The notes under the pieces are model-generated. The model saw only the letters and a list, made by a program, of their open reading frames with translations. It was not told where the DNA came from and did not search any database. 64,000 nt of DNA from Nitrospirillum viridazoti CBAmc (GTDB taxonomy: Bacteria > Pseudomonadota > Alphaproteobacteria > Azospirillales > Azospirillaceae), in assembly GCF_000730165.1 (NCBI RefSeq), contig NZ_CP022110.1:124001-188000 (forward strand), written 5' to 3'. Positions 20,220 through 37,208 of the stretch are shown piece by piece; positions within the stretch are counted from its first letter, which is position 1; every line of letters starts with the position of its first letter. A program made the position numbers and the translations under genes.

Positions 20220-20225
20220 GGGACC

Positions 20226-20254
20226 GACAGGGCGGGTGGAAGCTCCCGCCCGTC
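20226..20254 (+). terminator. Hairpin after the S9 peptidase gene
   Basis: GGGCGGG (20230-20236) pairs with CCCGCCC (20245-20251), extended by GAC/GTC across one bulged base. A run of six T begins only 14 bases later, so it is a non-canonical terminator. Confidence 0.55.
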
Positions 20255-20346
20255 GACGGCAGCCATATTTTTTCACCGAGGCCATTGTCGCGCCGGAATT
20301 TCGACCGATCCTCATGGGGCAGGTTCGGATTTCGGAGCAATGCCTC

Positions 20347-20790
20347 ATGCCGTTCGTGGCCATCGGCTATACCGCCAATCCCAAGGCGCCCGTTGGGAAA
20401 TGGGTTTGTACCCGCACTTCGGCGCTGGGACCCTATGACACTCCACCTCCTGACGATACCCGACACAACCCGGATTATTGTGGGCAGTGCGTCTCCTACG
20501 TGACGCAGGTATGCCCTTCCCTCCCAGTAAGAACAGGGTTGTGGAGAAGGGGTGACATCGTAAAAGGAAACAAGAATATTGTTGCGGGAACCGTGATAGC
20601 GACATTCGATTCAAATGGCCATTATGATGGGCATGCCGCTATTTACGATCATCAAACCGATGATGGAATTTATGTATATGATCAATGGATCACCGGTACC
20701 GCCCCTCAAGCGGTTTCGCTTCGGCTTATTTTATGGCAGGGGCGAGGCATCTCAAATACCGGCAGTAAATTCTTTATTGTCGAGCACTAA
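20347..20790 (+). CDS. BPSL0067-family protein, predicted peptidoglycan amidase effector
   Basis: About 147 residues. It resembles the BPSL0067 family of NlpC/P60-like amidases, several of which I recall as type VI secretion effectors. The putative catalytic Cys lies in DYCGQCVSYV (about residue 45) and the His in GHAAIYDHQ (about residue 95). Other family blocks are RGDIVKGNKNIVAGTVIATF and GIYVYDQW. Start choice is uncertain: ATG 20347 with GGAG upstream, ATG 20314, or GTG 20236, the last falling inside the previous gene's terminator. The next gene starts 2 bases after its stop and is its likely immunity partner. No secretion genes are nearby. The sequence is distinctly less GC-rich than its neighbours, suggesting acquisition. 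Confidence 0.8.
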   Translation: MPFVAIGYTANPKAPVGKWVCTRTSALGPYDTPPPDDTRHNPDYCGQCVSYVTQVCPSLPVRTGLWRRGDIVKGNKNIVAGTVIATFDSNGHYDGHAAIYDHQTDDGIYVYDQWITGTAPQAVSLRLILWQGRGISNTGSKFFIVEH

Positions 20791-20791
20791 T

Positions 20792-21142
20792 ATGGTTCGA
20801 CTATCCTTACTTCCATTGCTTGTTAGCTTGATATCATCGGGCTCGGCATCTGCGACAACGCCAAGCGTATGTCCCGTTCGAGGTGGCGATCTCGTTAAAT
20901 ATATCAGCGTGTACAATGGAAAACCCGAGGATTTGGTAAATCTCGCCCCTGACGATGAAACCGGCAAAAATCCAAACCAGGACAAGTTTACGCTGGACTA
21001 TATCTACAAAGACGGTCGAGTGGCCACCATCCGGTGCAAGTACGCAAGTGGCGCCATCACCGATGTGGAGCTGAAAGAACCCGTTAAACAGTGCACAGCG
21101 TCGAGAGGGAAATCTGGTGAGGTGACGGTTCAGTGCCGCTAA
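20792..21142 (+). CDS. Predicted periplasmic immunity protein (STY0301-like)
   Basis: A 116-residue protein with a signal peptide (LSLLPLLVSLISSGSASA) and four cysteines, two of which (in VCPVRGG and near the C-terminus) could form a disulfide. The pattern VYNGKPEDLVNLAPD, then LDYIYKDGRVATIRCKY and a terminal Cys-rich strand, resembles STY0301-type proteins that sit beside peptidoglycan-cleaving effectors. Periplasmic location fits protection against an amidase. It starts one base after the effector stop, so expression must be coupled. Assignment rests on family recall and context. Confidence 0.7.
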   Translation: MVRLSLLPLLVSLISSGSASATTPSVCPVRGGDLVKYISVYNGKPEDLVNLAPDDETGKNPNQDKFTLDYIYKDGRVATIRCKYASGAITDVELKEPVKQCTASRGKSGEVTVQCR

Positions 21143-21260
21143 GGTCTTACTACTTATGCGATTACCGAGAAGAAGTCGACTGGACTGTCGGTGCGATGCC
21201 ACCGAAATATTAATGATCAGCGCCTGGTAGCCTATCTCTTATTCTGTTTGGCAAGGCCGC

Positions 21261-21491
21261 CTACAGCGTCACGGATCGCGGCGCGAATTGCCGTGGATGC
21301 ATCCTAATTTCCGCCGCCAGGCCGTCCAAGTAGGCGCTGTCGGCCAGGGCCGAGGCCACCTCTACCGCCGTCAGCGGAATATTCAGCTCATACATGCCGA
21401 CACCACCACACAGCACCGACAGGACATGCCCCGTGCCGGTTTCATACAGGATGTAGGTCCACGCCTTCTCAGCGACCTTTCGAGGCGTCAT
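21261..21491 (-). CDS. Small hypothetical protein near the island's left end
   Basis: A 76-residue protein starting MTPRKVAEKAWTYILYETG, with GHVLSVLCGGVGMYELNIPL and ADSAYLDGLAAEIRMHP. It has a compact, non-repetitive alpha/beta composition and AGGGA upstream of the ATG. The frame continues upstream through the att repeat, but that part is not expected to be coding. It resembles short hypothetical proteins of Azospirillum-like bacteria. It would have been the tRNA-Arg neighbour before island insertion. Function unknown. Confidence 0.55.
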   Translation of the reverse strand: MTPRKVAEKAWTYILYETGTGHVLSVLCGGVGMYELNIPLTAVEVASALADSAYLDGLAAEIRMHPRQFAPRSVTL

Positions 21492-21532
21492 GGGGTGTAT
21501 CCCTGGGAGGCCGACCCGCTGTGGCATATTAA

Positions 21533-21566
21533 ATGGCGATGTGGGAAATGGTGTCCCCGGCGGGAT
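21533..21566 (+). repeat. Left attachment repeat (att)
   Basis: 34-bp perfect match to 30710-30743. It contains the last 18 bases of the tRNA-Arg gene including the CCA-encoding end, but no functional tRNA. Confidence 0.93.
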
Positions 21567-21627
21567 GGGTGCCGCACCTGGGGTCAACCCTATGAATCCA
21601 ATAATATCATGACATTGGAATGGTGTT

Positions 21628-21650
21628 CCTGGTACACGCACCTGGTACAC
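21628..21650 (+). promoter_or_regulatory. Left arm-type integrase sites
   Basis: Two copies of CCTGGTACAC at 21628-21637 and 21641-21650, spaced by 13 bases, just upstream of the integrase start. The same sequence recurs at the right end. Confidence 0.7.
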
Positions 21651-21667
21651 ACCAGACTGAAACGCCC

Positions 21668-23047
21668 ATGCCTGACAATCGCCACCTGATCCAGAAGCAT
21701 CTTACCTGGTTCTTCCGCCTCCGCGTCCCCAACGACCTGCGCGCGGTCTATGGCAGCGCTGAGATTCACAAAAGCCTACAGACCCATTCCGTCATCCAGG
21801 CCCGCACGCAACGGGATGTCCTGCTTGGGCGCTACCGTCGCGAGTTCGAGGACCACCGGCGCGGCGCCAAGATGGAAGACTTGGTGTTGTCCAACGCCCT
21901 GCTTGCCAAGCGGGAAATCGCCCAGGCCAGCGCCAGCCGGATTGCTGTGGACCTCGGTGATGAGCGGTTGACGGAGCGGGAGTTGGCCGCAGACCTCGCC
22001 CGCGAGACGGCGCACAGGGTCATCCCCCAGGTCATTGGCACGGATGATCCCGATGACCCCCGATATATGGAGCAATTCGAACTCTACCACCGGGTGGCTC
22101 ACGGCACGTCTGATCCATTGGCGCCGCTGCTTGAACCCTGGCTCCGCGAGACCAAGGGGGCCGTGAAGACCATCGCGGAGAAGCGAAAGGTGGCCCAAGC
22201 GTTCCTGGACTGGATGGTGACACAGCGCCTGGTCCTGATCGACGACATTCCCCGCCGGGTCGCCTCGCGCTATGTGCGGGAAGAGATCGCCGGGCGCGGT
22301 GTGAAGCCCGCGACGATCAATAAGGAGATATCGCACCTGTCTTCCTGGTGGCGTTGGTTGAAGAAGCGCGGCCATCTGGAGGACAGCGAGAACCCCTGGA
22401 CGGACCAGGGCTATACCGTCAATCCGGATGCCGAAGGTGAGGACGAGGAAACCAACCACCGGGCTTGGACGACCGACGAACTGAGGACCCTGTTTAACGC
22501 CGATCCTGCGGCCTGTGGGGTGCGTCCGGCCACACGGGCTACTCTTCTGCGGTTCGCCAAGGCAGCCCTCTACACGGGCGCCCGGCGGAGCGATTTGGCC
22601 GGTCTGAAGGTCGGCGATGTCGAGACCAAGGAGGATGGTGGCCTATGGCTGATAATCCGCCGGGGCAAAACCAAAGCGGCAGTCCGCAACATTCCCGTCC
22701 ACAGCGCCATTGAGCCCCTGATACGGGAGATGATCCAAGATCGCCCGGCGGACGAGTGGCTGTTCACCGGCCCGGGGATCGTTGGAAAGACCACCGGCGC
22801 CCGTGCCAACTACGTGGGCAAGCTGTGGCGGGACATGACCAGCGAACTAAAGTTGATGCCGGTCCTGCACGGTCTCCGCGCGACCTTCATTGAACACATG
22901 GAGGCCGCCGGGGTCCCTCTCAGCACCGTGAAACTTATCGTCGGGCATCGGCGCGGCGACATCACGTTCGGCCGCTACAGCAAGGGCCACCTGGTGGACC
23001 TGCGCACGGAAATCGAGAAGGTGCAGGTGGTGGGGGTGTTCGGCTAA
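21668..23047 (+). CDS. Tyrosine-type site-specific integrase
   Basis: A 459-residue phage-type integrase. The N-terminal region (RHLIQKHLTWFFRLRVPNDL) resembles the arm-binding segment of island integrases. The catalytic domain shows Arg in TGARRSDLAGLKVGDV (about residue 310), HGLRATF, GHRRGDITFGRYS with the His and the Tyr nucleophile near residue 440. ATG 21668 is chosen because the upstream extension of the frame consists of the arm-type repeats. It lies about 100 bases inside the left att copy, at the end away from the tRNA. Confidence 0.93.
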   Translation: MPDNRHLIQKHLTWFFRLRVPNDLRAVYGSAEIHKSLQTHSVIQARTQRDVLLGRYRREFEDHRRGAKMEDLVLSNALLAKREIAQASASRIAVDLGDERLTERELAADLARETAHRVIPQVIGTDDPDDPRYMEQFELYHRVAHGTSDPLAPLLEPWLRETKGAVKTIAEKRKVAQAFLDWMVTQRLVLIDDIPRRVASRYVREEIAGRGVKPATINKEISHLSSWWRWLKKRGHLEDSENPWTDQGYTVNPDAEGEDEETNHRAWTTDELRTLFNADPAACGVRPATRATLLRFAKAALYTGARRSDLAGLKVGDVETKEDGGLWLIIRRGKTKAAVRNIPVHSAIEPLIREMIQDRPADEWLFTGPGIVGKTTGARANYVGKLWRDMTSELKLMPVLHGLRATFIEHMEAAGVPLSTVKLIVGHRRGDITFGRYSKGHLVDLRTEIEKVQVVGVFG

Positions 23048-24033: not shown

Positions 24034-24705
24034 TTACCGCACGGCCAGCCGGTCACGGACAGCCTTTACCTGCACGGCGGTCCATTGGCGTCCCCTTGGA
24101 GTCTTAAGACCTTTCTCGTTCAGGGCGCGCGCGATGCCTGACGCGGAACGCACGCCGTCGGCTTCCAGGTCAGCCAGCAAAGGGGCTAGGCGGAGGGCGT
24201 GGGCGGCAGCGGCGGCGGACCGGGCCTTGGCGCTGTTGACGTTGCCCAGGGCGCGGACAGTAGCGAGGTTGCCCCGATCCCCACCCAGGCGCGTGCCACG
24301 GGCTTTAGCGGCATCCAAGGCCGCCTTGGTGCGGGCGCTGATCGCTTCCCGCTCTGCCTCGGCCACCACCGCCAGGATACCCACGGTCAGGCGATTGGCG
24401 TTGGGCATGTCGGCGCATACGAAGTCCACCCCGGAGTCTCGTAGGGACAACAGGAAGGCCGCGTTACGGGACAGACGGTCCAGCTTGGCGATAACCAACG
24501 TAGCGCCGTACAGGCTGGCCGTGCGGATTGCGGCTTCGAGCTGGGGGCGGGCGTTGACCTTCCCTGACTCCACTTCCGTGAATTCCGCTACCAGCGGCGC
24601 ATGTCCGACGTGGGCCCGGACGGCAGACATTTGGGCTTCCAGACCCAATCCGCTTTCGCCCTGGCGGCGGGTGCTGACGCGGTAGTAGGCGACGTAGCGG
24701 GTCAT
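24034..24705 (-). CDS. Serine recombinase (resolvase/invertase family)
   Basis: 223 residues. The catalytic domain begins TRYVAYYRVSTRRQG with the nucleophilic Ser near residue 11, and contains LVIAKLDRLSRNAAFLLSL and AEAEREAISARTKAALDAAKARG. A C-terminal recombinase-type DNA-binding region (IARALNEKGLKTPRGRQWTA) follows. The upstream frame to 24873 is antisense to the toxin promoter region and was trimmed. It could resolve, invert or excise DNA in the island, but no inverted crossover sites were identified. Confidence 0.9.
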   Translation of the reverse strand: MTRYVAYYRVSTRRQGESGLGLEAQMSAVRAHVGHAPLVAEFTEVESGKVNARPQLEAAIRTASLYGATLVIAKLDRLSRNAAFLLSLRDSGVDFVCADMPNANRLTVGILAVVAEAEREAISARTKAALDAAKARGTRLGGDRGNLATVRALGNVNSAKARSAAAAAHALRLAPLLADLEADGVRSASGIARALNEKGLKTPRGRQWTAVQVKAVRDRLAVR

Positions 24706-24908
24706 CAGGAAGCCTTGAAGTTTGGTGCAACGCTCGTTGCAGTAAACTTTAATGGCCAAGCGGCCCGATGACCTGTGCTTATCCGGAATCAGGGGGCCGT
24801 CGCTAGAGCATGGCTTGGTCTTCGGGCTTTCGTAACGGCGCCTACCTGTAGATACCGCCCAGCGGTTGAACAACCACCTATTGTCCTGTCGCGCTATTTA
24901 CGGTACCA

Positions 24909-24936: not shown

Positions 24937-25257
24937 TTGGACATTGCGTTCGCAACAAGCCAACTACGGTCAATCTGCTTAAGCCCAACCAGAGCAAAAC
25001 GGGAATTTGGTCAGGCCATTGCGGATATCCTAAAGCGCCGATTGGCGGACCTTGACGCGGCTGATTCAATTGAAGACCTGGTAGCCGGGCAGCCGACGAT
25101 AATGGCTGACCCTCTGGAAGTGTCGATTGTGCTCCGTGACGACCACGTTCTATGCATCCGCTGCGGCCATGCTGCGCCCCCAACGGACAAGTGGGGAAAC
25201 ATCGAATGGCGAAGGGTCAGCCGGGTGAAGGTGATGGGGATTCAGAAAAATGGCTGA
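24937..25257 (+). CDS. HigB/RelE-like toxin
   Basis: 106 residues from a TTG start preceded by GGGG. The pattern LDIAFATSQLRSICLSP, KREFGQAIADILKRRLADLDAADSIEDL and a C-terminal WRRVSRVKVMGIQ matches the beta-alpha core of HigB-type RNases of type II toxin-antitoxin systems. The frame extends upstream to a GTG at 24775, but that part crosses the operator palindrome and lacks domain character. Its end overlaps the antitoxin start by 8 bases. Toxin activity is inferred. Confidence 0.7.
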   Translation: MDIAFATSQLRSICLSPTRAKREFGQAIADILKRRLADLDAADSIEDLVAGQPTIMADPLEVSIVLRDDHVLCIRCGHAAPPTDKWGNIEWRRVSRVKVMGIQKNG

Positions 25258-26344
25258 ACCTACGGAGTTCCAACCACAGTGGGCTTCTCCCCCCGGCGGG
25301 ACAATTCTCGACATCCTGGATGAGCGAGGAATGTCGATCGAAGATTTCTGCGCTGCAATGAAAACAACGGAGCGTCAGGCTTCTCGCCTCATAGCTGGGG
25401 CTGCGGAGATTGACGCAAAGCTTGCGGTGAAGCTTCAAGACGTTCTTGGCGGTTCCGCAGCGTTTTGGCTTCGGAGAGAGGCTCAGTTCCGTTCCAGTCT
25501 TTCGCGCATTTCTGACGCCGCAGCGGACATGGAGCCGAAGGCTTGGTTATCCACCCTCCCTGTTCGGGACATCGTGGCCTTCGGTTGGGTCCCGCGAATT
25601 GCGGGGCGAGCGCAGCAGGCGGCAGCTTTGTTGGAGTTCTTCAATACTCCGACGGTAGGAGCTTGGCATCAGCAGTATCAGAAGACAGTGACCGCCGTTG
25701 CCTACCGTACTTCGGCCACCTACGATTCGAAATTCGGCGCCCTGGCGGCATGGCTAAGGCAAGGTGAGATCGAGGCCGAAGAAGTTGAATGTGGCGCGTG
25801 GAACAAAGAAGGGCTCCGCAAACTTCTTCCGAAGATACGTGCGCTTACAGTCATCGAAGATCCATCGGTCTTTTTGCCAAAACTTCAGGAAATGTGCGCG
25901 ACCTGCGGAGTAGTTGTTGCGGTTGTTCGTGCTCCTGCGGGTTGCCGTGCTAGTGGGGCAACGAGATTTTTGTCAGAAGAAAAGGCGCTTCTTCAGCTAA
26001 GTTTTCGCTATAAGACTGATGATCATTTCTGGTTCACGTTATTCCATGAAATTGGCCACTTAATATTGCATGATTGTTCATCTATTTTTATCGAAGACAA
26101 AGACCTTATTCCAACACATGAAGAGGATGAGGCAAACGACTTTGCTGCTGACATGCTAATTCCAAGTCATTATAAGGATGATTTATTGTCTCTCCCCCAA
26201 GACTATAGGGCGATCATGCGCTTCTCAAGACGTATTGGTGTCAGCTACGGTATAGTTGTTGGGCAGATGCAGCATCTCGGTTTGTTGCCAAGGAATAAAT
26301 TTAATAAACTAAAGACGGGGTATGTGTGGGTTAATCGGGATTAA
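25250..26344 (+). CDS. HigA-type antitoxin fused to an ImmA/IrrE metallopeptidase domain
   Basis: 364 residues with two domains. The N-terminal XRE/HigA helix-turn-helix spans about residues 14-80 (PGGTILDILDERGMSIEDF, TTERQASRLIAG, LQDVLGGSAAFWLRRE). The C-terminal ImmA/IrrE (M78) peptidase carries HEIGHLILHD near residue 268 and DEANDFAADMLIP as the third zinc-ligand region. It should bind and repress the operon and neutralise the toxin; the peptidase may cleave a regulator on induction. It ends in a 4-base convergent overlap with the aGPT-like gene. Confidence 0.85.
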   Translation: MAEPTEFQPQWASPPGGTILDILDERGMSIEDFCAAMKTTERQASRLIAGAAEIDAKLAVKLQDVLGGSAAFWLRREAQFRSSLSRISDAAADMEPKAWLSTLPVRDIVAFGWVPRIAGRAQQAAALLEFFNTPTVGAWHQQYQKTVTAVAYRTSATYDSKFGALAAWLRQGEIEAEEVECGAWNKEGLRKLLPKIRALTVIEDPSVFLPKLQEMCATCGVVVAVVRAPAGCRASGATRFLSEEKALLQLSFRYKTDDHFWFTLFHEIGHLILHDCSSIFIEDKDLIPTHEEDEANDFAADMLIPSHYKDDLLSLPQDYRAIMRFSRRIGVSYGIVVGQMQHLGLLPRNKFNKLKTGYVWVNRD

Positions 26345-27273
26345 CCTCTAAATGGTTCATATGTGTCCGGGTTCTTTTGCCAGTTGCACAAGGCATCTTC
26401 CATGACCTGCATGCCTAGATCAAGATAGTCTCCAAGTTCTATTACCCATCCATTTAATACGTCGGGCCGCAGATTTGCTTCTCGGCTTCCACCAAACAAG
26501 AGTCTAGCCCCAGCGAGAGGGCCGGTTGCACCAATGAGGTAAGGGCTCCCAGGTTCGATGTCCGCAAGGGCTAGTTTCCCAATCATAGTAAGGAAGTCAA
26601 AGCGACCCGTTCTGCCAAACGATGTCACCTGTCCCATCTGATTATATAAATGATGGAATGCCGCTTTTGGATTTCCTTTGGTCGCGTCGTGAGTTTCTTG
26701 AATAAGAAGACCATGACCTTGGTTGTGGCCAATCCATGAGACGTAGGCATTAAAAACAGCAGAAGTTCCGCGTCGTGAGTCCGGGCGTAATGTTTCGTAT
26801 TTACGATGGTTTCCAAATCGTCTGGAAACACCGTCGGATCGCAGTGATGGATAAGCGTTGGTTAGCCATTGGCGGAAGCCGTTAACGTCGCCCGAGATTC
26901 TCATCCAGGTCCAGGGCATGCTTGCATCTCCGCCCCTGTACAGAGTTCGGGCCAATTCCCACCCATCACTCAGATGCTTTCCACAGTAGGTCGCAACGAA
27001 GACGAGCCAGCAGGCTTCATCTACATCACCCTTTCGATAATTTATTACCGCCGCTTTTAATGGGTCGAATAAGGCGCTTTCGGGATTACAGCGCGCTTCG
27101 TCGAGTTTCGCTTGGCGCAGTATGTGAACATACTCGATCCGCCGGATGCTGTCGATAAACTGAGAGACAAGAGTATTTCTTCGTTCGCTGGTCGTCAGTC
27201 CATTCAACGGGCGTACTTGATAGCTCTCAAGGTCCGAAAATAGTTTCAGACGGCGGTTTTCCGCTATTCTCAT
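26341..27273 (-). CDS. Alpha-glutamyl/putrescinyl thymine pyrophosphorylase-like protein (clade 3)
   Basis: 310 residues. Blocks FDPLKAAVINYRKGDVDEAC, LVFVATYCGKHLSDGWELAR, FGNHRKYETL, and TMIGKLALADIEPGSPYLIG, with GATGPLAGARLLFGG and EDALCNWQK, match the family I know as aGPT-pyrophosphorylase clade 3. Relatives in phages act in thymine hypermodification (alpha-putrescinyl- or alpha-glutamylthymine), replacing a pyrophosphate on 5-hydroxymethyl-uracil. Whether clade 3 has that activity is not established to my knowledge. It overlaps the thymidylate-synthase-like gene by ATGA, so they must be coexpressed. Composition is markedly AT-rich. Confidence 0.75.
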   Translation of the reverse strand: MRIAENRRLKLFSDLESYQVRPLNGLTTSERRNTLVSQFIDSIRRIEYVHILRQAKLDEARCNPESALFDPLKAAVINYRKGDVDEACWLVFVATYCGKHLSDGWELARTLYRGGDASMPWTWMRISGDVNGFRQWLTNAYPSLRSDGVSRRFGNHRKYETLRPDSRRGTSAVFNAYVSWIGHNQGHGLLIQETHDATKGNPKAAFHHLYNQMGQVTSFGRTGRFDFLTMIGKLALADIEPGSPYLIGATGPLAGARLLFGGSREANLRPDVLNGWVIELGDYLDLGMQVMEDALCNWQKNPDTYEPFRG

Positions 27274-28292
27274 CGTTCACCTTCATCATATTCATCTGAT
27301 TCTAGATTCAGGTCAAGCTGATCCTGATAGAATTTATCGGACTTCTTTCTTATGTATTGATCATAAAATGAAGACTTCATGGATTTTCTCAAAAAAACAA
27401 TACGGCGTAGGTTATCTCTATTTATTGTCCCTCTGGTTACGTTATATATCTGGAGAAGTCGTATGATGTCTTTCCAGTAATCATTCACATTAATTTTGTC
27501 GACGTCAACAGAATATCCGTTTCGAATTTTTTCTTCTGCGTCTAGAGCTAACTTAAAGGAAGGCCATTGGCTTCCCATGGGCATTGGAGGCATCATTCGT
27601 TTCGTTTGCCAGTCCTCCGCCATGAAAGCTTCGGCTTTCTTCAAATCGGTATCGTATAGATGGAGACTCGCAACTGCATGCTTGTAACGGCCGAGGCGAA
27701 CACCTAGTTCACGTGCAATGAGTTCCTGTATCATCGTGAAAGCAAAGACGTCATGAGGTAGTCCTTTATAGGCGTCGTTAGATCTCATGCTTACATACAT
27801 GTGAAGAAATCCACGCCTAACAATAAACTGCATTGTGCAGGTACATGGGACGTCTTTATAAAATCCAGCAAGGTCGCCTGAATCGTATAGCTGAATCACG
27901 GCCCGTCGGGATGAAACATTCCGTTTTAGGAGGCCGACGACCTCGTGAATTTGATTGACGTTGCTCTTATTTAACAGTCTAGGACCATATCCCCCCCAAA
28001 CTATATCAGTCCCTTCTTCCGCTTCGTACCCTTTGCTAATATAATATTCAATAAACTTAAGGGAATTGCTGCCCGAGAGATACCAAAATAGTTCACCAAG
28101 AGCGCTAAAAATTCTTCCTCGATTTTCGGTGCGGCTGACCCGGGCACGTGGCTGAGTTAATTCCAGCACCACGCCAAATAGCTCTTTGTTCGCGCCCTTG
28201 CTCGGAATTGGTTCGACCTGAAGTCCATGCCGGAGAATTCGAGAAAAGACTACGCGCAGAAGGTCGTCAAATGTCTTCCTGCGAATATGCAT
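27270..28292 (-). CDS. Thymidylate-synthase-fold (hydroxymethylase-like) protein
   Basis: 340 residues of the thymidylate synthase/dCMP-hydroxymethylase fold. The nucleophile Cys is in DVPCTCTMQF (about residue 148), the phosphate-binding block is MRSNDAYKGLPHDVFAF, and the nucleotide-binding HLYDTD follows. In normal thymidylate synthases the block is RSxDxxLGxPFNI; here the Asn that reads the uracil ring is Asp (PHDV), a change associated with dCMP-type substrates. A C-terminal extension of about 60 charged residues is unusual. ATG 28292 is used because an in-frame TGA lies just upstream. It overlaps the aGPT-like gene, suggesting production of a modified deoxynucleotide. Confidence 0.85.
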   Translation of the reverse strand: MHIRRKTFDDLLRVVFSRILRHGLQVEPIPSKGANKELFGVVLELTQPRARVSRTENRGRIFSALGELFWYLSGSNSLKFIEYYISKGYEAEEGTDIVWGGYGPRLLNKSNVNQIHEVVGLLKRNVSSRRAVIQLYDSGDLAGFYKDVPCTCTMQFIVRRGFLHMYVSMRSNDAYKGLPHDVFAFTMIQELIARELGVRLGRYKHAVASLHLYDTDLKKAEAFMAEDWQTKRMMPPMPMGSQWPSFKLALDAEEKIRNGYSVDVDKINVNDYWKDIIRLLQIYNVTRGTINRDNLRRIVFLRKSMKSSFYDQYIRKKSDKFYQDQLDLNLESDEYDEGER

Positions 28293-28305
28293 TACGAAAC
28301 CATTA

Positions 28306-28348
28306 TCAGATGTTTCCAGAGATATTCATATCATAGGTTGCCTCCTTT
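28306..28348 (-). promoter_or_regulatory. Strong Shine-Dalgarno followed by a minimal leader frame
   Basis: AAAGGAGG (complement of 28341-28348) precedes ATG ATA TGA starting at 28334, in the same frame as the thymidylate-synthase-like gene. A second ATG at 28329 opens a 7-codon frame (MNISGNI) ending at 28306, 14 bases before the gene's ATG. The best ribosome site of the operon therefore leads into stops rather than into the gene. Confidence 0.5.
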
Positions 28349-28533: not shown

Positions 28534-30513
28534 ATGATTAATTATATTCCATCACACTTGGCAGACGTTCTTGATGGACCAACGCATGACATGCTAGAAG
28601 CGACACCCCTCCGTGGCAATTCTGCAAGTAGCTCGTTTCTGCAGATACACCGCGGTGTAAATATGACCTACCTTCCCCTAAGGCTACTAGAAAACATGGG
28701 TCCTAAAGCGCTCCCCCCCGGCCCCCTTCAGGTCGCCGCACGAGAGGCTCTCGAAAAGACCTTGTTGGGGCGGGGGCAACGGCCATCTCCAATCCAGATG
28801 GATGCACTGCACGACCTCTTGGATATCATGTGCATGATGGCCGAAGGGCGGACCCAGCCTTCCTATTACCTTTCTTCCCTAGATCCGGGCCTAGGAAAGA
28901 CGACGGCTGTGGTGTCATTCCTGAAGGCGCTTTGCGCTAGCGACCAGCACCGTCACGTCTCCGCCTTGGTTTGCCTGGCTCGGCGAGAGGAAATCAGGGA
29001 TGTGATCGAAGGCTCCGGGCTTTCGTCAGATGAGTTCGCCGTATTGGCGGGGAAGGCCTCCGAGGGCCCGCAAAGTGCGCGGTGGGTTGACTTAGATGGT
29101 CTGGGCGGCGTGGCACCAGACAAGGCCCGTGTCTTGTTCACCACTCAGGCTATGGTCAAGCATCGGTGTAAGCGTAGCCCGTTCGAAGACGTTTCCGCCT
29201 TCCAATACCGGGGAGAACTTCGGCAGGTCCGCATCTGGGATGAATCATTCGAGATCGCGGAAGGCATCACGATGGACCACGATGCTATAGCTGAACTGTT
29301 CCGGTCCCTGCGTGTCCTCAACCCCGAAGCCACAAAGGCCTTGCTGGGCTTGCACCGTGAATTGGAGGATGCGCCGGATGGGACTATCCACGAACTGCCC
29401 GACTTGGCCTCGCCTTTCGGTCTTCAGTTAGTAGATGCGCTGGACCATCACGGGAGTGCCTTGTCTCCGGAGAAGCTGGAGACGCTTTACCATTTGGTGG
29501 CGCTGTCTTCCCAGACCTGTGTCGTCCGCCACTTCCAGGGGCGCCGCTACCTCATCGGCAAGGCCACGCCCATTCCCGGAGACCTGGCGCCCGTTGTCAT
29601 CCTGGATGCCTCGGGACGGGTGCGGCAAACCTACACATTGTGGGAACGACATCGGCGGACCCTGGTGCGCTTGAAGGCGGCGGCCAAGGACTACAGCCGC
29701 CTTACCATCCACCATTGGTTCAAGGGTGGCGGTCGGGAAACCATTCGTGACGACATCTCCCGCTACGCTGATGCCGTGGCTGCGGCGATCAACACCAAGC
29801 CGGACCAGGAATGGCTGGTGGTTCACCATAAGCCCCGCGACGAGGAAACGGACCTTGCCGAGGCAGTGCTGAGCGGCCTTGAAGGAAACCTGAATCGCGT
29901 CCGATTTCTGACTTGGGGGCGCCATCATGGCACCAACGAATATGCCGACATTCCTAACGTGGTCCTGGTCGGGGCCTTGTATCAACGGGATATAGACCAC
30001 GAAGCCCGTTGGCACGCCTGTTCGGAGATCGCCCCCGGCCAGCAACGATGTTCGGAGGAAGACCGGCTCGCGGTGGAGGAAGGTGAGTTTCGACACATGG
30101 TGCTTCAGGCGCTATGTCGTGTGGTGGTGCGGAAGAATGAAGGCGGAACCTGCGCGCCCTGCACCGCATATGTAATCGCCAAGAAAGGGGATGTCGTTCG
30201 GAGCCTTAAGGAGGCCTTTCCGGGCGCTGCAATCGTTCCGTGGCACCCCGAGACCGTGGAACCATCCGGTCGGGTGGCTGAAGCTTTGGAGATCATCCGG
30301 GCATGGCTGGACGCGGGTGTTCCGGACCTTCTTCCTTTCAAGTCGGTGGCCCGGACCATGGGCATTCAGCCACGCACCTTCCGGGACAATGTCCGACAGC
30401 ATCCTTTATTCATGTCCCGCCTCGCTGCCCTTGGGGTTGAGGAAGCGGGCGGTGGCGGTGTTCGCAAGACCGGCTTCGCCAGGATCGCCATGGAGGCGGA
30501 TCGGGCCGCCTGA
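28534..30513 (+). CDS. Large P-loop ATPase/helicase-like island protein
   Basis: 659 residues (shorter if the ATG at 28663 is the start). Walker A is LDPGLGKTTAVVSFLKAL at about residue 115, and a Walker-B-like WDESFEI lies near residue 238. Later segments, such as VVIRKNEG-like strands and a C-terminal helical DNA-binding-type tail (FKSVARTMGIQPRTFRDNVRQHP), suggest an SF2-type helicase or DNA-stimulated ATPase. I cannot assign a named family. The 14-bp palindrome TACACCGCGGTGTA (28646-28659) sits four bases before the ATG at 28663. It diverges from the thymidylate-synthase-like/aGPT pair and fills the tRNA-proximal end of the island. Confidence 0.8.
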   Translation: MINYIPSHLADVLDGPTHDMLEATPLRGNSASSSFLQIHRGVNMTYLPLRLLENMGPKALPPGPLQVAAREALEKTLLGRGQRPSPIQMDALHDLLDIMCMMAEGRTQPSYYLSSLDPGLGKTTAVVSFLKALCASDQHRHVSALVCLARREEIRDVIEGSGLSSDEFAVLAGKASEGPQSARWVDLDGLGGVAPDKARVLFTTQAMVKHRCKRSPFEDVSAFQYRGELRQVRIWDESFEIAEGITMDHDAIAELFRSLRVLNPEATKALLGLHRELEDAPDGTIHELPDLASPFGLQLVDALDHHGSALSPEKLETLYHLVALSSQTCVVRHFQGRRYLIGKATPIPGDLAPVVILDASGRVRQTYTLWERHRRTLVRLKAAAKDYSRLTIHHWFKGGGRETIRDDISRYADAVAAAINTKPDQEWLVVHHKPRDEETDLAEAVLSGLEGNLNRVRFLTWGRHHGTNEYADIPNVVLVGALYQRDIDHEARWHACSEIAPGQQRCSEEDRLAVEEGEFRHMVLQALCRVVVRKNEGGTCAPCTAYVIAKKGDVVRSLKEAFPGAAIVPWHPETVEPSGRVAEALEIIRAWLDAGVPDLLPFKSVARTMGIQPRTFRDNVRQHPLFMSRLAALGVEEAGGGGVRKTGFARIAMEADRAA

Positions 30514-30672: not shown

Positions 30673-30709
30673 ACGATGTCGTGGGGCATCGTCTAAGTTA
30701 TTGATTTAT

Positions 30710-30743
30710 ATGGCGATGTGGGAAATGGTGTCCCCGGCGGGAT
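30710..30743 (+). repeat. Right attachment repeat (att) overlapping tRNA-Arg
   Basis: 34-bp perfect match to 21533-21566. Positions 30726-30743 are the 3' end of the intact tRNA. Confidence 0.93.
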
Positions 30744-30802
30744 TCGAACCCACGGCCCCAGGATTAGGAATCCTGTGCTCTATCCTGCTGAGCTACGGAG
30801 AC
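30726..30802 (-). tRNA. tRNA-Arg (anticodon CCU)
   Basis: 77 bases with encoded CCA. The acceptor stem GTCTCCG pairs with CGGGGAC; anticodon stem CAGGA/TCCTG encloses the loop TTCCTAA, giving anticodon CCT; the T-loop GGTTCGAATCC is canonical. The 3' 18 bases are shared with the left att copy at 21549-21566, marking it as the integration target of the island. Confidence 0.95.
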
Positions 30803-36144: not shown

Positions 36145-36272
36145 CCGTCCGGAAGACCGCTCCGCTTTTCGGTAGTTCGCGCTCCGTAGCCAAGCAAGGC
36201 TCTCCGAACGGCCCCTTCATTGACCCGAACAGTTGCCTGGGGTTGCCGCCCCGTACGTGCAAGGATGGGAGC

Positions 36273-37208
36273 ATGAAGATGGCGCAGAACGACTCTATCA
36301 TCGCCCTGGATGTCAGCAAGGCCCGCCTGGACGGCTTCGATGCCGCGACGGGAGAGACCTTTCAAATCGATAACACCAAAGCCGGATATGCCACCCTCCT
36401 GCAACGGTGCCGGAAGCGGGCTGTACAGGTCGTTGTGGAGGCCAGCGGCGGCTATGAGCGACTTGTCATGAAGGCTTTATGGAAGGCCAATATTCCCGTC
36501 CGTATCGTCGATCCCCGCCGGGTTCGGCATTTCGCACGAGCCAGTGGGCGCTGGGCCAAGAATGACCGCCTCGATGCCCGAATGATCACCGCCTTCGCGC
36601 AGGCAATTGAAGGCGAGCCATACCAGGCGGACCCACATCGGGAGAAACTGGCGGAACTGGCCACGCGACGGCGTCAGCTCACCAACATGCAGACCATGGT
36701 CCGCAACCAGGCTCAGCTTCTGGAGGACCTGGAGTTGGCCCGTCTGAGCAAACGCCACCTGAACATCCTGGCCCTTCAGATCGCCCGCATCGAAAAGCGT
36801 ATCGCTGACCTCATCGCCCAGCATGAAACCTTCAGGACCAACAACGCCAGGCTCCAGTCCATCCCCGGCGTCGGTCCGGCCTGCTCAACCGTCCTGTTGG
36901 CCTACATGCCCGAACTGGGCGCCATCACACGACACCAGGCCGCCGCATTGGTCGGCGTCGCTCCCATGGATAACCAGAGCGGCAAACGCGACAGGCCCAG
37001 GAGCATTTACGGCGGAAGATCAGAGGTCCGATCCGTCCTCTATATGGCCGCCCTCGTCGCCAGCAAGCACAACCACACCCTCAAAGACTTCTATCGGAGG
37101 CTGATCAACGCCGGCAAAAAGCCCAAAGCCGCCCTCGTCGCTGTCATGCGTAAGCTCATTATCCTCGCCAACGCACTCATTCGAGACCAGAGGGCATACG
37201 CACCTTAA
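36273..37208 (+). CDS. IS110-family transposase
   Basis: 311 residues. The N-terminal DEDD RuvC-like domain shows ALDVSKARLDGF (first Asp), VVVEASGGYE (Glu) and KNDRLDARMITAFAQ (Asp pair). The C-terminal Tnp20 domain has LQSIPGVGPACSTVLLAYMPELG and LVGVAPMDNQSGKRDRPRSI with the serine expected in this region. Start ATG 36273 is preferred over an upstream one at 36243. The gene looks intact. Confidence 0.93.
   Translation: MKMAQNDSIIALDVSKARLDGFDAATGETFQIDNTKAGYATLLQRCRKRAVQVVVEASGGYERLVMKALWKANIPVRIVDPRRVRHFARASGRWAKNDRLDARMITAFAQAIEGEPYQADPHREKLAELATRRRQLTNMQTMVRNQAQLLEDLELARLSKRHLNILALQIARIEKRIADLIAQHETFRTNNARLQSIPGVGPACSTVLLAYMPELGAITRHQAAALVGVAPMDNQSGKRDRPRSIYGGRSEVRSVLYMAALVASKHNHTLKDFYRRLINAGKKPKAALVAVMRKLIILANALIRDQRAYAP

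Follow-up and report, generated by a model that had tools for sequence, protein, structure and literature searches.

A mobile four-gene module with a predicted dCMP hydroxymethylase and an amino acid:DNA transferase homologue as a candidate cytosine hypermodification system

What would a thymidylate-synthase-like enzyme do in a bacterial chromosome next to a homologue of the enzymes that add amino acids or putrescine to hydroxymethyluracil in phage DNA? The question is raised by two genes in a 64,000-nucleotide stretch of the genome of Nitrospirillum viridazoti CBAmc (contig NZ_CP022110.1, positions 124,001 to 188,000). This stretch is called the window below, and positions are counted from its first letter. 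Our results place the two genes in a conserved four-gene unit on a mobile element. The reading we favour, with a confidence just short of an even chance, is an anti-phage module, mobile and inducible, by which cytosine is hypermodified. The two enzymes are:

27270-28292, minus strand: thymidylate-synthase-fold enzyme of 340 amino acids, a predicted deoxycytidine monophosphate (dCMP) 5-hydroxymethylase (PF00303; MilA as best PDB relative; active-site residues)
26341-27273, minus strand: homologue of amino acid:DNA transferases, aGPT-Pplase clade 3, 310 amino acids (PF18746, PF18724; AlphaFold2 model)

The enzyme pair belongs to a four-gene unit

The original prediction, made from the letters of the DNA, had the coordinates, the two AT-rich reading frames and their ATGA overlap exactly right: both open reading frames are intact and have the four bases at 27270-27273 in common. 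Guanine-plus-cytosine content is 0.44-0.49 in the three 1-kb segments covering the pair versus 0.61-0.74 in most others, and the region is thus AT-rich for this genome. The synthase matches the Pfam family Thymidylat_synt (PF00303) with an E value of 5.9e-24 and 85.1 bits (curated cut-off 24.3). The transferase homologue matches aGPT-Pplase3 (PF18746; 8.3e-99, 330.9 bits, cut-off 25, profile positions 2-279 of 279) and ADDT (PF18724; 1.4e-67, 228.2 bits, cut-off 26.2, profile positions 1-232 of 232). On the 5' side of the synthase start, at 28293-28347 on the minus strand, an AGGAGG is followed by three tiny reading frames in a row (2, 7 and 3 codons); translational control by these frames is possible, and they may also be due to chance.

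A second operon runs convergently into the pair, its protease gene overlapping the transferase gene tail to tail by four bases (26341-26344). It contains:

24937-25257, plus strand: HigB-like small protein, 106 amino acids, TTG start (RelE/HigB fold; the C-terminal DYH motif of HigB is absent)
25250-26344, plus strand: HigA-type helix-turn-helix (HTH) protein fused to an ImmA/IrrE (M78) zinc protease, the presumed sensor/regulator (Peptidase_M78; PADLOC PD-Lambda-2_B)

We compared 39 loci with a transferase open reading frame, namely L001, L003-L013, L022-L047 and the window; L002 and L049 were dropped as repeats of the window. The synthase is present in 37 of them, so that the proposed pairing of the two enzymes goes beyond chance. 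The convergent protease is likewise found in 37 of 39 and the HigB-like gene in 34 of 39; in L001, L031, L032, L033 and L047 genes are missing at contig ends. L061, a further Escherichia coli copy with all four genes, stands outside this set. It is important to note that these loci cannot be counted as 39 independent cases: at 90% identity, 36 synthases form 29 groups, and there are near copies (L023/L024; L025-L027; L005/L028/L030/L031; L034/L035), L028 and L030 coming from opposite ends of the same contig. When the distance matrices of the four gene families were compared across 26 representative loci, r was 0.88-0.94, and 1000 label permutations reached at most 0.336. The four genes are inherited jointly; joint function is not shown by the distance correlation itself. 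Between two E. coli alleles with 79% DNA identity, silent changes predominate in the four genes: the ratio of non-synonymous to synonymous change (dN/dS) is 0.06 for the synthase (its dS of 2.0 being near saturation), 0.07 for the transferase, 0.08 for the protease and 0.21 for the HigB-like gene. Gene content, order and convergent arrangement are conserved, and the unit consists of four genes. The proposal of a hypermodified-nucleotide pair therefore holds in part: a thymidylate-synthase-fold enzyme with dCMP-hydroxymethylase-type residues and an ADDT homologue do lie together on a mobile island, but they are half of a four-gene unit that is conserved in distant bacteria including E. coli.

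The results do not support a pair confined to this island. The pair occurs in Pseudomonadota, Spirochaetota and Actinomycetota. Of 5426 complete E. coli genomes, 226 contain at least 80% of the module DNA, and in some of these records NCBI has already named the transferase protein. Moreover, aGPT-Pplase already figures among defence domains that are predicted and not validated (PMC13092281). Since the same gene set exists in distant bacteria including E. coli, the suspected anti-virus role can be tested. A tblastn search with the transferase matched 8 of 72,556 plasmid records. Seven of the eight were surveyed, record H6 being left out (Roseomonas, Leptospira, Pantoea, Neorhizobium, Rhizobium, Agrobacterium and Arthrobacter), and all seven have the synthase, the transferase and the convergent protease; the Leptospira transferase is annotated as two genes. 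Scanning IMG/VR with a profile turned up 26 loci, on contigs that are only presumed to be viral, and a one-protein scan of viral contigs gave none that was confirmed. Of 398 genomes searched across the phylum, 4 have PF18746, the window's own included. It was found in 1 of 385 genomes of the class, and the transferase family in 1 of 99 related genomes searched, in both cases the window's own. The 14 well-known genomes used as controls, which include E. coli, gave no member of the family. Searches of 50,697 phage records gave no match at E 1e-5 with the window protein or at E 10 with the E. coli protein. A gene of ordinary phages was rejected on this basis, yet one plasmid with the module also carries phage portal and tail-assembly genes.

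The settings of the module, plasmids (including the one with phage genes) and integrated, tRNA-linked islands, bring up the possibility that it protects the mobile element itself. The enzyme pair would then decorate cytosines of the element or the host against restriction, and the HigB-like and HigA-ImmA proteins would form an addiction or control unit. Phages are known to use hydroxymethyluracil-based hypermodification against restriction (PMC6449724). However, on E. coli chromosomes the module lies by type I restriction genes, no replication gene is among the four, the module was not found in the 50,697 phage records, and to modify every cytosine of the host constitutively would presumably be costly. 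Taken together, self-protection seems unlikely to us. A restriction-modification system was ruled out, there being no nuclease among the four conserved genes.

Predicted chemistry of the two enzymes

The residues pointed out in the original prediction are present in the synthase: Cys150 in PCT, RSND at 170-173, and Asp181 in PHDV at the position where thymidylate synthase has Asn. Glu67, Asp147, Ser171 and Arg129 complete a set that is the same in the T4 dCMP hydroxymethylase gp42. More specifically, among 36 module synthases (L001, with broken frames, was excluded from the count) Asp181, Ser171, Cys150 and Glu67 are found in all 36, Asp or Glu at 147 in 35 and Arg129 in 33. The host's own ThyA, encoded by a separate gene, has Leu147 and Asn181, the synthase of phage M6 has Asp147 and Asn181, and a Priestia synthase (L020) has Ala171 and Lys129. 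The best PDB relative of the window synthase is MilA, a cytidine monophosphate (CMP) 5-hydroxymethylase, with an E value of 1.2e-45, or 5e-71 when the family profile is used. Cytosine recognition has been tied to Asp186 of MilA, equivalent to Asp179 of the T4 enzyme, and ribose use to Ala176 and Lys133 of MilA, in place of which deoxy enzymes have Ser and Arg (PMC5175136). The residue three before the catalytic Cys, Asp145 in the T4 enzyme, activates water for hydroxymethylation and is Leu in thymidylate synthases (PMC6400193).

Because the window synthase has the dCMP-type set (Asp181, Asp147, Ser171, Arg129), its predicted product is 5-hydroxymethyl-dCMP. The modified pyrimidine foreseen originally thus stands as a candidate hypermodification, but hydroxymethyluracil is an unlikely product since the specificity residues point to dCMP. 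Three other assignments were rejected. Asp181, Asp147 and the presence of the host's own ThyA speak against an ordinary thymidylate synthase; also, the best NCBIfam score is 75.8 against a curated equivalog cut-off of 327, which places the enzyme outside ThyA. Asp181, constant in the module synthases, speaks against a deoxyuridine monophosphate hydroxymethylase, and Ser171 and Arg129 of the window copy in place of the Ala and Lys of MilA speak against an antibiotic-type CMP hydroxymethylase. The same dCMP-type residues are seen in a synthase on a Streptococcus salivarius plasmid (L019, 4878-5744), which lies in a cluster with AAA, PqqD-family, phosphotransferase and CYTH genes, a candidate for a different modification or antibiotic cluster.

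Relatedness to MilA, an enzyme of nucleoside-antibiotic synthesis, is also what one would expect if the substrate of the system were a free nucleotide. A modified dCMP or nucleoside-like molecule would then poison phage polymerases or act as a signal, and the substrate of the transferase would not be DNA. In this connection, a gene annotated by NCBI as MazG-like adjoins the module on the far side of the HigB-like gene, from which it reads away, in two E. coli records (L013 7631-7894; L061 6476-6742), and relatives of it stand in the same place in three more copies (L034 7461-7724; L035 4606-4869; L046 8430-8696). Its dN/dS between E. coli alleles is 0.05, and Pfam recognised nothing in the two copies tested. 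However, the ribose residues of MilA are replaced by Ser171 throughout and by Arg129 in nearly all module synthases, and the transferase model resembles phage proteins that act on DNA. Moreover, none of the four conserved genes encodes an exporter or an additional biosynthetic enzyme, the flanks not having been compared systematically. All this makes a free-nucleotide system quite unlikely.

The transferase homologue gave a nearly all-helical AlphaFold2 model, built from 20 sequences, with a predicted local distance difference test score (pLDDT) of 91.0 and a predicted template modelling score (pTM) of 0.90. Its best viral fold match is an ADDT-domain protein of Mycobacterium phage LilMcDreamy (E 4.6e-5, probability 1.00), followed by weaker matches to helical domains of 5-hydroxymethyldeoxyuridine (5-hmdU) kinases of phiRSL1 (E 0.08) and phiW-14 (E 0.41). 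PDB sequence searches gave no useful match. In 36 of 36 aligned transferases (L001, L004 and L047 were excluded from the count) the conserved residues include Gln38, Ser42, Trp89, His156, Arg157, Arg221, Glu292, Cys296, Trp298 and Lys300. The transferase-family profile did not recognise a transferase of phage M6 in the 48 kb examined out of 59 kb.

The transferase model also bears a weak likeness to an endonuclease III (E 1.3, template modelling (TM) score 0.42/0.52) and, in the PDB Foldseek search, to 8-oxoguanine glycosylase (E 3.8, TM 0.35/0.37). One could therefore imagine a weapon based on base excision, in which hydroxymethylcytosine is seeded in phage DNA, glycosylase-like proteins attack these sites and repair breaks the DNA. 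The glycosylase-like proteins would be the transferase homologue and the product of an extra conserved gene that lies between synthase and transferase in five loci (L004 7151-7954; L023/L024 5105-5932; L032 5147-5944; L033 5148-6008). One of three copies of this gene scanned matches DNA-deoxyinosine glycosylase below the cut-off (8.3e-4, 19.5 bits versus 80), and the product is perhaps uracil-DNA-glycosylase-like. The only match of the middle gene among the 72,556 plasmid records is the Leptospira module; a PDB sequence search and a profile comparison with the transferase gave nothing useful. But only 5 of the 37 loci in which both enzymes are present, whole or in pieces, have the extra gene, and high Pfam scores place the second enzyme with the transferases. 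We regard base excision as improbable.

Control pair, mobile element and a possible mechanism

In the HigA-ImmA fusion, Peptidase_M78 is recognised above the Pfam cut-off (3.4e-9), HTH_3 just below it (1.6e-4) and the HigA family TIGR02607 below its own (5.7e-9). PADLOC assigns PD-Lambda-2_B to the window copy (2e-22) and to the E. coli copy (8.7e-30), and all 37 module proteases have HExxH. The HigB-like protein was modelled with a pLDDT of 93.5 (residues from 24940), and Foldseek matched the model to YoeB (E 9.2e-4) and to Proteus vulgaris HigB (E 8.3e-3, TM 0.66/0.76). It has no Pfam family above the cut-off and no PADLOC match, so the likeness to the A protein of PD-lambda-2 is by fold only. 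None of 34 module copies ends in DYH (three near-identical copies have EDYGF), on which ground an active HigB toxin was rejected; a partner or antitoxin is more likely than an RNase. A separate HigB adjoining the module of L003 has a TDYH end. The HigA-peptidase B protein of PD-lambda-2 is toxic, and its toxicity is relieved by the HigB-like A protein (PMC9519451). The ImmA/IrrE relative PprI of Deinococcus has been reported as a DNA-damage sensor acting via single-stranded DNA (PMC10904395).

The HigB-like gene, the smallest of the four, is easy to overlook: it is absent from the incomplete gene table for four of the seven plasmid loci and from one E. coli record, whereas a second E. coli record does list it. 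A related protease without the synthase was seen in five plasmid loci: two lie by ThiF/multiubiquitin genes, one by a Pycsar-like TIR-cyclase set with an E2 gene and one by a restriction subunit gene, and one has no telling neighbour. In L015, L016 and L018 the HigA-ImmA genes stand directly by the ThiF/multiubiquitin genes or the Pycsar-like TIR-cyclase-E2 set, and L015 and L016 have the HigB-like gene as well. This suggests that HigA-ImmA is a general control cassette of defence systems.

The element that carries the module in the window is delimited by the following features:

21529-21566: left att-like repeat, 38 nucleotides, 97% identical to the right copy
21620-23047, plus strand: tyrosine integrase of the element (PF00589, 6.3e-16)
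24034-24711, minus strand: serine recombinase of the resolvase family, a passenger gene (PF00239, 3.2e-26)
28534-30513, plus strand: 659-amino-acid protein, a passenger gene (Walker-A-like motif read by eye; no family above cut-off)
30706-30743: right att-like repeat, overlapping the end of tRNA-Arg(CCT) at 30726-30802, minus strand

The 38-base repeats bracket about 9.2 kb, within which lie the integrase, two small open reading frames with no family above cut-off, the serine recombinase, the four-gene module and the 659-amino-acid protein. The site looks empty in two relatives of the same genus. In L055, about 0.08 kb separates the tRNA side from sequence like that at window position 21138, a distance of about 9.6 kb in the window; in L052, sequence like that at 20222 lies about 0.4 kb from the tRNA side, versus about 10.5 kb in the window. 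The left flank had no long match in the other three relatives compared (L051, L053 and L054) within the stretches available. Immediately left of the element, 20222-21528 is AT-richer, absent from the L052 site and partly present in L055 (69-71% identity), and may stem from an earlier insertion at this tRNA. An IS110-family transposase gene at 36270-37208 lies outside the element. As to copies elsewhere, two from E. coli are in islands with integrase and type I restriction genes, and the Roseomonas copy (L003) adjoins the Lamassu genes LmuA and LmuB.

How would an anti-phage module of this composition work? The synthase would convert dCMP and methylene-tetrahydrofolate to 5-hydroxymethyl-dCMP, host kinases would raise it to the triphosphate, and this would enter new DNA, for the most part while phage is replicating. 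The transferase homologue would then flip out 5-hydroxymethylcytosine and couple an amine, either an amino acid or a polyamine, to the methylene group of the base. Such bulky cytosines could block copying, reading or packaging of phage DNA, or kill the infected cell. The HigB-like and HigA-ImmA proteins would act as a control pair of the PD-lambda-2 type: a sign of infection such as single-stranded DNA would trigger the protease, removing repression or freeing a toxic activity, so that the modification would be made only when needed. PD-lambda-2, which has the B protein in common with the module, gives abortive defence (PMC9519451), and thymidylate synthase and 5-hydroxymethyluracil kinase are among the domains of validated E. 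coli defence systems (PMC13092281).

Several observations weigh against this reading. The TM score to the best viral match, the LilMcDreamy protein, is 0.44/0.46 and thus below 0.5, and the PDB Foldseek search with the transferase model returned nothing at E 0.001. We know of no transferase of the ADDT family that acts on cytosine. The main gap is the activation of the hydroxymethyl group. In phages a 5-hmdU DNA kinase first phosphorylates the hydroxymethyl base (PMC6449724). No such kinase is in the module, nor was one found in the genome by PF18723, a search that was silent in all 14 controls as well, and the activation step therefore lacks an explanation. Neither synthase nor transferase is matched by PADLOC. 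A common operator on the 5' side of both operons was not found in 14 loci (6 shuffles per locus; palindromes with perfect 9-base arms only), the best 24-base match beating the best of the shuffles in one locus only, by one base, which leaves control of the synthase by the HTH protein unsupported. Some synthases may prefer other substrates, judging by Asn at 147 in L009 and Lys at 129 in L008, L037 and L041. L012 is truly without partners: its stand-alone transferase relative (1387-2295, 37% identity) lies among unrelated genes, with no partner within about 1.4 kb on either side. Finally, defence genes adjoin mobile genes of many kinds, and neighbours were viewed in few loci only.

The more specific claim that an immune module attaches an amine to hydroxymethylcytosine in DNA via an ADDT-family enzyme, dispensing with the kinase of the thymidine pathway and standing under a HigB-like/HigA-ImmA sensor, is doubtful at present. 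If it is true, a classic counter-defence chemistry of phages becomes a weapon of the host, and the product would to our knowledge be the first amine-decorated cytosine of such kind. In any case the module predicts products that can be checked, 5-hydroxymethyl-dCMP and amine-decorated cytosine, and it links DNA hypermodification to control proteins of the PD-lambda-2 type. It also supplies a gene content for aGPT-Pplase, whose defence role is no more than predicted in the literature searched.

Comparison with known systems

The aGPT-Pplase candidate of DefensePredictor (PMC13092281, Fig. 6F), predicted there and not validated, resembles the module in its aGPT-Pplase domain, and HTH and UDG are among the abbreviations in the legend of that figure. 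With the CMP hydroxymethylases MilA and BcmA the window synthase has the cytosine Asp in common, and MilA is its best solved relative, but the ribose-preference residues Ala176 and Lys133 are Ser171 and Arg129 in the window enzyme. To T4 gp42 it corresponds in the Cys, the Glu, the water-activating Asp, the cytosine Asp and the deoxyribose Ser and Arg. In sequence the two are less close, as no gp42 entry is among the best 60 of 126 and 127 PDB matches, which MilA leads. The setting differs too, the partner in the module being a transferase homologue and not a glucosyltransferase.

Thymidine hypermodification in phages such as phiW-14, M6 and ViI is similar in combining a thymidylate-synthase-fold hydroxymethylase with an ADDT/aGPT-Pplase homologue. 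Unlike the M6 synthase with its Asn, the module enzyme has the cytosine-type Asp181; unlike the phage pathways, the module adds a convergent HigB/HigA-ImmA operon and is bacterial and mobile. No 5-hmdU DNA kinase is among its genes, and none was found in the genome by PF18723, which was silent in the controls too. PD-lambda-2 resembles the module in the order of a HigB-like protein followed by a HigA-peptidase fusion (PMC9519451). It differs in that the module has two convergent nucleotide enzymes; no component like the P4-antitoxin-like C was recognised among the module proteins scanned. We read the module as base hypermodification joined to a control pair like that of PD-lambda-2, the likely target being cytosine in place of thymine.

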